This document shows, one piece after another, positions 27,325-30,394 of a stretch of 64,000 nt of DNA. The notes under the pieces were generated by a model. It was not told where the DNA came from. It saw only the letters and a list, made by a program, of their open reading frames with translations, and searched no databases. The stretch is from the NCBI GenBank assembly GCA_947454155.1, contig CANGIT010000001.1, forward strand, positions 62,001 through 126,000, in the 5' to 3' direction. Each line of letters begins with the position of its first letter. Position 1 is the stretch's first letter. Both the position numbers and the translations under genes were made by a program. Source of the DNA: Chitinophagaceae bacterium (GTDB taxonomy: Bacteria > Bacteroidota > Bacteroidia > Chitinophagales > Chitinophagaceae).

Positions 27325-28875
27325 TTACAGCTTTATCTCCTCATCGCTGTCGTCGAAAAATCTGAATTCGGTGAGATGATAATGGTTGTCGGCTACCACT
27401 TTGATTTTTTGTTTGTATTTCCAGCTCCATTTGAGGCGGCGGGAAATCAAACCACTGGTGAGGTAGTTATAAATGATGGGATGCACCACAATCGTGAGTC
27501 CTTTGTGGCGTTGCATGATCAGATAATTGAGATTCTTGGCAATTTCATCTTCGAGAATCAATGTAGAGGCGATGGTGCCTGAGCCATTGCAGCTTGGGCA
27601 AACTTCGCTTGTATTGATATTTGTTTCTGGTCTCATACGCTGACGCGTAATTTGCATCAAACCAAATTTGGTGATGGGAAGCACTGCATGTTTAGCTCTG
27701 TCGGTGCGCATCAATTCTTCCATGGCATCGGCTAATTTCTTTTTATTTTCCATCAGCTTCATATCGATGAAGTCAACAACTATAATGCCACCCAAATCCC
27801 TTAATCGGAGCTGCCTTGCAATTTCTTCTGCAGCTTCCAGATTTGTTTCCAGCGCATTTTGCTCCTGATTGTTACTTACGCTTTTGTAACCACTGTTCAC
27901 ATCAATCACATGAAGCGCTTCAGTATGTTCAATGATCAGATAGGCACCGCTGGGAAGGTTTACTGTTTTGCCAAATGAGGCTTTTACTTGTTTTGTAACG
28001 CCAAGGCTGTCGAAAATAGCAGTACCATTTTGATTATAGAAAGAGAGGATATCTAGTTTGTCGGGAGCAATTCTTTGTAAATAGTTCTTGGTTTCAGCAA
28101 ACAGCTTTTTGTCGTTGATAACAATGCGGTTGAAATCCGGGTTGAGCAGATCGCGCAAGATGCTGTTGGTTTTACCCTGCTCGCTTAAAATGCGGGTGGG
28201 TGCAATTGCGCCACTTAAATTTGCCTGTATGGTTTTCCAAGTTTGCTCAAGACTAAGCAAATCTTCATGAAGTTCGGCCGTATTTTTTCCTTCAGCGGCT
28301 GTTCTTACAATAACGCCAAGATTTTTGGGTTTAACTGCTTCTATAATTTTTTGCAATCTTTTTCTTTCATCCGAAGAATGAATTTTTCGGGAAACAGCCA
28401 CCACATCGTTGAAAGGTGTTACCACCACAAATCTTCCAGGCAGGGAAATCTCGCAAGTCAAGCGAGGACCTTTGGCAGCAATAGGTTCTTTGAGAATCTG
28501 CACCAGCACATTGGGCTTGCCTCCGAGCACGTCGTTGATTTTTCCTGTTTTGACGATTTCGGGTTCAATTTTGAATTTACCAAAATCGGCAGCCTCGCCT
28601 TTGCGCTGCTGCATGGATTGCTGGGTGAATTTTAGAATTGACTTTACATATGGGCTTAAATCAGTGTAATGAAGGAAAGCATCCTTATCAAAACCGACGT
28701 CCACAAATGCAGCATTGAGTCCGGGAATAAGCTTCTTTACTTTTCCAAGATATAAGTCTCCCACTGCGAAACTGGCATCAGCTTTTTCACTGTGCAGTTC
28801 CACCAATTTCTTATCTTCCAGCAAAGCGATTTCCACGCCCCCTGGAATCACGTTAATGATTAACTCCTTGGTCAA
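27325..28875 (-). CDS. rng: Ribonuclease E/G family protein
   Basis: S1-like N-terminus YLGKVKKLIPGLNAAFVDVGFDKDAFLHYTDL, DVNSGYKSV, IIVVDFIDMK, CPSCNGSGT Zn-link. Confidence 0.96.
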   Translation of the reverse strand: MTKELIINVIPGGVEIALLEDKKLVELHSEKADASFAVGDLYLGKVKKLIPGLNAAFVDVGFDKDAFLHYTDLSPYVKSILKFTQQSMQQRKGEAADFGKFKIEPEIVKTGKINDVLGGKPNVLVQILKEPIAAKGPRLTCEISLPGRFVVVTPFNDVVAVSRKIHSSDERKRLQKIIEAVKPKNLGVIVRTAAEGKNTAELHEDLLSLEQTWKTIQANLSGAIAPTRILSEQGKTNSILRDLLNPDFNRIVINDKKLFAETKNYLQRIAPDKLDILSFYNQNGTAIFDSLGVTKQVKASFGKTVNLPSGAYLIIEHTEALHVIDVNSGYKSVSNNQEQNALETNLEAAEEIARQLRLRDLGGIIVVDFIDMKLMENKKKLADAMEELMRTDRAKHAVLPITKFGLMQITRQRMRPETNINTSEVCPSCNGSGTIASTLILEDEIAKNLNYLIMQRHKGLTIVVHPIIYNYLTSGLISRRLKWSWKYKQKIKVVADNHYHLTEFRFFDDSDEEIKL

Positions 28876-28979
28876 AATGAAATACTTTTAAGACCCGTAT
28901 GCATCACGGCAGGATATACAGCGAAAGTTGCCTATAAAAGACAATGCTGTAATTAGAAGTGAAATAAAAGCAACGAAAT

Positions 28980-29021
28980 AATGTAATTCCCTAACCTCAA
29001 AATAAGTAAGGGAACTACATT
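28980..29021 (-). promoter_or_regulatory. Strong stem-loop in the presumed 5' leader of the RNase E/G gene
   Basis: Minus-strand AATGTAGTTCCCTTAC-TTATTTTGAG-GTTAGGGAATTACATT: 16-nt arms with one G-U and one mismatch; no U-tract follows. Confidence 0.55.
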
Positions 29022-29044
29022 ACATTAATCCTAAGGGATTAAGC

Positions 29045-29134
29045 TTATCTCTTTTTATGACGATTCTTTCTTAAACGTTTTTTGCGCTTATGAGTAGCGA
29101 TTTTATGACGTTTTCTTTTTTTACCACAAGGCAT
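29045..29134 (-). CDS. 29-aa highly basic protein (COX24/AURKAIP1-like or small ribosome-associated protein)
   Basis: ATG..TAA reading MPCGKKRKRHKIATHKRKKRLRKNRHKKR; 17 of 29 residues Lys/Arg; below the ORF-track length cut-off. Confidence 0.8.
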   Translation of the reverse strand: MPCGKKRKRHKIATHKRKKRLRKNRHKKR

Positions 29135-29173
29135 AACCTAGTCTTTTTTTATGAATAAATAATATATAAATGC

Positions 29174-30022
29174 TTATCGTTTATTGAGACTTCCGATTCT
29201 TTCGTCAATCTCTTTTGTGTAATCAGGATCGTTAACCATTTTCTTAAGTATGTTGTAACATTTGATAGCGTTTGGTTTATCACCTTTGGCTGCATAAGTA
29301 TCAGCTAAAAAGGCCATCGCTTCAATGTTGCCCGGTTCATTAAGGATTACTTTGGTCAACCTGCCGATTGCTTTGTCGTATTGTCCCGAAACGTAACCTC
29401 CAACACCCAGCACCAATTGCGCTTTCATGTTAGAAGAATCTCTTCTCACCACATCAAGCAAACTTAAAATACCTTTCATGGTTTGCTGAGGATCACCGTT
29501 TCTTCCTTTGCCGTAGATATAGCAGCTGGCAAGGTCAATTTTGAGATCATCATTTTCCGGATTCAACGCAATTGCCTTTTCAAAAAGTTGAATGGCTTCA
29601 CTGGATTCCCAATTTAATTTGGCTGCATCTTCCTCTGTTCTCAAGCCACTCAAAAATAATTGGGCAGCGAAGGTGAGGTTTTTTTCCGAATTATCCAACT
29701 TTGCAGCTTCTCCTGAATAAAAAGCGTAGCCTTCAAATTTTTTTAAGCTGTCTTTCCAGAGGTCAGCGGCGGTATGAAGTAACTTGATTTTTTGAGAAAG
29801 TTCTGTGGTGGAGTTCAGGGAGTCGTCAATAAGCTTTAACCTGTTTTTAATGGTGACAGGAACTGCTTGTTCTTTTATAAATGATTGAATGTCAAAGTTT
29901 AGTACTTCTTTTGGGGCGGATGACATTACAGGTTTTGTTTCGGAAATGGTAGGGCCAAAACAGTATAGTAATACAATCAGTAAAATGCCGGAGACGATTA
30001 GAATTCCCTGTTTGAGATTCAC
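29174..30022 (-). CDS. Tetratricopeptide-repeat protein with N-terminal membrane anchor
   Basis: TPR-like helices (NPENDDLKIDLASCYIYGKG..., NIEAMAFLADTYAAKGDKPNAIKCYNIL); GTG at 30022 preferred because a terminator lies between 30023 and 30055. Confidence 0.82.
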   Translation of the reverse strand: MNLKQGILIVSGILLIVLLYCFGPTISETKPVMSSAPKEVLNFDIQSFIKEQAVPVTIKNRLKLIDDSLNSTTELSQKIKLLHTAADLWKDSLKKFEGYAFYSGEAAKLDNSEKNLTFAAQLFLSGLRTEEDAAKLNWESSEAIQLFEKAIALNPENDDLKIDLASCYIYGKGRNGDPQQTMKGILSLLDVVRRDSSNMKAQLVLGVGGYVSGQYDKAIGRLTKVILNEPGNIEAMAFLADTYAAKGDKPNAIKCYNILKKMVNDPDYTKEIDERIGSLNKR

Positions 30023-30055
30023 AAAAAAAACCTGCCGGGTTTTTATAAGGGCAGG
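30023..30055 (-). terminator. Rho-independent terminator of the HU/IHF gene
   Basis: Minus strand CCTGCC-(13 nt)-GGCAGG followed by eight T residues. Confidence 0.75.
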
Positions 30056-30070
30056 AGGCAAATGTACTGA

Positions 30071-30394
30071 TTAATCTTCATTGTCGTCCTTAACATCAGG
30101 CGCTTCTTTGATGTTTGTCGATGTTTTGATTTCATGAACAAACTCTTTAGCCGGTTTGAACGCTGGGATAAAATGCTCTGGAATGGCAACGGAAACATTT
30201 TTTTTAATGTTCCTTCCGATCTTGGCTGCCCTTTTCTTGATGATAAAGCTGCCAAAGCCCCGGATGTAAAGGTTTTCGCCGGATGCCATAGTGGCTTTAA
30301 CTTCTCTAAACATCGTTTCCAGCGTCACCAGTACATCAACTTTCGGAATGCCTGTTTTTTCAGAAATCTTGTTTATCAAGTCTGCTTTTCTCAT
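30071..30394 (-). CDS. HU/IHF family DNA-binding protein
   Basis: MRKADLINKISEKTGIPKVDV, YIRGFGSFIIKKRAAKIGRNI, PAFKPAKEF. Confidence 0.95.
   Translation of the reverse strand: MRKADLINKISEKTGIPKVDVLVTLETMFREVKATMASGENLYIRGFGSFIIKKRAAKIGRNIKKNVSVAIPEHFIPAFKPAKEFVHEIKTSTNIKEAPDVKDDNED

Follow-up and report, generated by a model that had tools for sequence, protein, structure and literature searches.

Introduction

The closest described counterparts of the gene analyzed here encode bS22, which has already been published for F. johnsoniae and Borrelia (PMC10618245, PMC10085706). The study of the Borrelia ribosome reports the F. johnsoniae protein together with a pocket of h2, h27, h44 and h45 and with H68 (PMC10618245), and the study of C. 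acnes places bS22 at h27, h44, h45 and H67 and also reports the F. johnsoniae protein (PMC10085706). The bS22 proteins of F. johnsoniae, Borrelia and Actinobacteria are found in one pocket of the 30S subunit and have been compared there with mS38 and eL41 (PMC10618245, PMC10085706). Those of Actinobacteria (M. smegmatis, 5o61; C. acnes, 8crx) are tiny and basic and, according to the papers, occupy this same pocket. mS38 (COX24/AURKAIP1) and eL41 also occupy this small-subunit pocket near h44, although mS38 is much longer than the protein of the present locus and eL41 is a shorter, straight helix. A further small protein, bL38, contains beta-structure and belongs to the 50S subunit, and is treated as distinct from the helical bS22 of the 30S subunit (PMC10618245). 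In F. johnsoniae, bL38 has beta-strands and adjoins uL6, uL14 and bL19.

The window, i.e., the whole 64,000-nt stretch of Chitinophagaceae DNA that was analyzed, contains a short minus-strand ORF which a sequence-only reading had proposed to encode a small ribosome-associated protein of the COX24/AURKAIP1 type, co-located with the RNase E/G and HU genes. The features of the locus are as follows:

27325..28875, minus strand: RNase E/G (PF10150, E 1.5e-98), conserved downstream neighbour of the bS22 ORF
28975..29024, minus strand: strong hairpin between the bS22 ORF and RNase E/G (z = -4.7 for a 96-nt stretch)
29045..29134, minus strand: ORF of 29 aa, ATG to TAA, assigned to bS22
29135..29155, minus strand: short leader aaaaaaagactaggtt preceding the bS22 ATG, similar in close relatives
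29174..30061, minus strand: TPR-repeat protein (PF14559, E 1e-14), directly upstream of the bS22 ORF, position conserved
30071..30394, minus strand: HU-family DNA-binding protein (PF00216, E 2.7e-23), conserved upstream neighbour

Sequence and conservation of the ORF

The ORF was found at exactly 29045-29134 on the minus strand, as had been claimed, and its product MPCGKKRKRHKIATHKRKKRLRKNRHKKR has 17 Lys/Arg and 3 His among 29 residues. This falls within the length and composition typical of bS22 (about 28-35 aa, more than half Lys/Arg), and the relatives that were read are 29-35 aa long. The window has 253 ATG ORFs with a length of 25-45 aa, and in this one alone do Lys and Arg make up 50% or more of the residues; no ORF of this kind reached that share when the window was resampled 60 times with a first-order Markov model. 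Compared with 29 order-level relatives, codon differences are synonymous in 215 cases and non-synonymous in 27, where random single changes would be expected to give a synonymous share of about 19%, and the changes fall mainly in the third codon position (226, with 24 and 27 in positions 1 and 2). The opening ATG-CCT-TGT-GGT, start codon included, is common to close relatives. The ORF is a real gene under purifying selection; it is ordinary for Bacteroidota, and looks missed only owing to its shortness.

No clear Shine-Dalgarno (SD) sequence was seen in the leader. In distant members of the phylum (loci L067, L068, L070, L072, L080 and L082), SD-like GGAGGT or AGGTGA motifs precede bS22, with none in the genus of the window.

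Full-length relatives were detected in 58 of 60 close genomes, the two genomes lacking a match being 57% and 65% complete. Across the phylum, 289 of 297 genomes carry one, nearly all as a single match, so the gene shows single-copy conservation at this scale. The surroundings of the gene were compared in 88 bS22 loci, the locus of the window included, with up to 1.5 kb taken on each side. In the window, the ORF sits in a 298-nt gap between the RNase E/G and TPR ORFs, with 39 nt from the TPR stop codon to its start codon. The complete set of HU, TPR and RNase E/G surrounds bS22 in 48 of the 88 loci, and eight further loci have HU and RNase E/G without a detected TPR homologue. An HU homologue, alone or alongside other neighbours, is found near bS22 in 72 of the 88 3-kb loci. 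The most distant members retain the link to HU or TPR only, or none. The co-location with RNase E/G and HU that had been read from the window is thus a conserved gene order, HU-TPR-bS22-RNase E/G.

The gene does not always stay in this cluster, as whole-genome search shows that Rhodohalobacter and many Balneolaceae have kept bS22, but away from HU (loci including L133, L152 and many MAG loci). The gene is relocated in Rhodohalobacter and related genomes, and because it is present there at a distance from HU, the HU neighbourhood is not required for bS22.

Relation to known ribosomal proteins

A PDB search with the window protein returned three distinct chains, all ribosomal and all aligned over residues 1-29. 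These are 7jil chain 5 (E 1.6e-9 by single sequence, 2.3e-15 by profile), 9i5v chain 10 (2.1e-9 and 1.5e-13) and 8fmw chain V, the Borrelia bS22 (1.6e-7 and 4.5e-10). The window protein is thereby homologous over its full length to bS22 chains of the Bacteroidota/Borrelia type in solved ribosomes, which bears out the proposal of a small ribosome-associated protein, and the search of Bacteroidota ribosome structures that had been advised led to F. johnsoniae 7jil chain 5, matched end to end. This F. johnsoniae protein, whose identical sequence is found in 9oz9, 9ozn, 9ozz and 9p0e, is of the same length class and the same phylum, with 83% identity over 29 residues, and differs by few substitutions (C3S, I12V, L21A, K23A and R29K). 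It is most likely a true ortholog of the window protein. The bS22 of Borrelia burgdorferi also aligns end to end, yet comes from another phylum; a GUG start codon has been described for it (PMC10618245). The depositors of 7jil and related entries label the matching chain both 'S22' and 'L38'. An all-basic Lys/Arg helix of 29 aa fits bS22. Judged by homology, the window ORF is Bacteroidota bS22, and its product is already known and not new.

The assignment to the COX24/AURKAIP1 type held in part. The window protein had no family match in Pfam or NCBIfam, and ten members of the bS22 family had none in NCBIfam. At the 23-bit cut-off of PF08213 (COX24_C), neither the window protein, nor its whole genome, nor F. 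johnsoniae bS22 was matched, whereas mycobacterial bS22, included as a control, scored 46 bits. Only the actinobacterial bS22 matches COX24_C, and the Bacteroidota type does not. BLASTP of the window protein against mycobacterial bS22, whose sequence was verified as a PDB chain, gave no alignment, and hhalign gave a weak match of 19 columns with a probability of 21%. Membership in the COX24_C sequence family was therefore rejected, as the control matches and the window protein does not. The part of the label that stands concerns position and shape, and the proposal that the protein works like COX24/mS38 is supported by analogy with the structures in the literature. Chain x of 9j1m, with 66 residues, consists of the 33-residue mycobacterial bS22 repeated exactly in tandem, which is probably a deposition oddity.

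A short ORF that matches neither Pfam nor NCBIfam could in this way be settled as a ribosomal protein. Annotation misses Bacteroidota bS22 because neither collection has a matching profile, and a model built from the bS22 sequences gathered here would fix this gap.

The locus might also be explained without a ribosomal protein. An AT-rich, Lys-rich frame could arise by chance in an intergenic gap, and the ORF is indeed short, sits in a gap of 298 nt and lacks a family model. However, this explanation is refuted by the end-to-end matches to solved ribosomal chains, the presence across the phylum and the codon pattern with its bias towards third-position change, to which the resamples add that not one comparable ORF appeared; its probability is very low. 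The conserved neighbourhood of HU, TPR and RNase E/G would also suit a nucleic-acid-binding or regulatory micropeptide of this cluster, for instance a partner of RNase E/G or HU, and not a structural ribosomal protein. Such a peptide is very improbable, since orthologues are modelled in ribosomes and the gene sits away from HU in Rhodohalobacter and many Balneolaceae.

Proposed position and role

We are close to certain that the best explanation as a whole is a bS22 gene, expressed from an HU-TPR-bS22 cluster, whose product lies in the pocket of h2, h27, h44 and h45. The location and contacts of the window protein are taken from the published structures of orthologues and probably apply to it. 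Translated from the gene cluster upstream of RNase E/G, the protein would form a short bent helix, probably packed into this 16S pocket near the decoding centre and the neck. Upon subunit joining it would touch H67/H68 of the 23S rRNA and so add an intersubunit contact. Its Lys, Arg and His side chains would neutralise the phosphate backbone, which should stiffen the top of h44. We infer that HU, TPR and bS22 may be co-transcribed, and that bS22 may affect h44 stability, subunit association or initiation.

Lineage-specific absence

The eight phylum genomes without a bS22 match (of 297) were searched with the profile at E values up to 10, and none convincing was found. In G285, G333 and G345 (loci L095, L094 and L092), both HU and the gene at the other end of the interval are intact, with no bS22 between them. 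G333 is taken as the same genome as Fodinibius halophilus, since an identical 16S locus lies at identical contig coordinates in both. Searched genome-wide, F. halophilus, F. roseus, F. sediminis and F. salsisoli gave no convincing match, and the flanking genes are intact in F. halophilus. bS22 is also absent genome-wide from Salinibacter ruber, and in Salinibacter, the genus of G205, a bS22-like frame is lacking both from the HU-TPR stretch and from the DNA beyond it. The second contig of G205 showed complete identity with plasmid NC_007678.1 of S. ruber DSM 13855 across the 15 kb that were compared. The remaining negative genomes (G307 and G350) are fragmented assemblies. Further losses had been considered in the many Balneolaceae in which no bS22 lies beside HU, but the whole-genome search found the gene elsewhere in Rhodohalobacter and most MAGs; only the losses in Fodinibius and Salinibacter stand. 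Loci illustrating the absence in these two genera also include L110, L111, L112, L126, L099-L101 and L186-L188.

A compensating change in the 16S pocket was sought in the two losers examined, F. halophilus and Salinibacter G257, and none was found. The pocket of F. halophilus (h2, h27, the ends of h44, and h45) is that of relatives keeping bS22 save one base change, and in G257, which has a readable 16S, the pocket is without clear alteration. Aliifodinibius salipaludis keeps bS22 adjoining HU, and since both this species and Rhodohalobacter halophilus, which by their names come from salty habitats, keep the gene, a strict link between loss and halophily is not claimed. We consider it fairly probable that the otherwise near-universal bS22 gene was lost altogether on at least two occasions, by some members of Fodinibius and by Salinibacter, without a matching pocket change where the 16S was found. 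It would then be dispensable in some lineages of the phylum, because the gene is absent there while close relatives keep it and the pocket is unchanged. The losers may also hold a divergent replacement below detection.

An addition to the bS22 explanation would be that the protein also tunes SD-independent initiation, and that Fodinibius and Salinibacter, having lost it, differ in their initiation preferences. SD pairing is reportedly not used by Bacteroidia (PMC9976891). In yeast, h44 and selected mRNAs are affected when mS38 is deleted, and mycobacterial bS22 has been proposed to act in leaderless initiation (PMC6582356). On the other hand, losers whose 16S could be read show no change in either the 16S pocket or the anti-SD. 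E. coli likewise does without bS22, and we regard this tuning role as unlikely. If the losses are true, Fodinibius and Salinibacter are natural knockouts for the role of bS22 in h44 stability or SD-independent initiation.

Intergenic signals

Scans for promoters and terminators around bS22 gave nothing over chance level, and Rfam had no match in the intergenic region. The hairpin at 28975-29024 lacks a strong T tail and had no match in the terminator scan. It possibly forms the 3' end of the HU-TPR-bS22 transcript or a site of its processing, and could control the adjacent nuclease gene as a terminator or as an element sensitive to RNase. Most relatives also have hairpins downstream of bS22, with sequences unrelated to that of the window.
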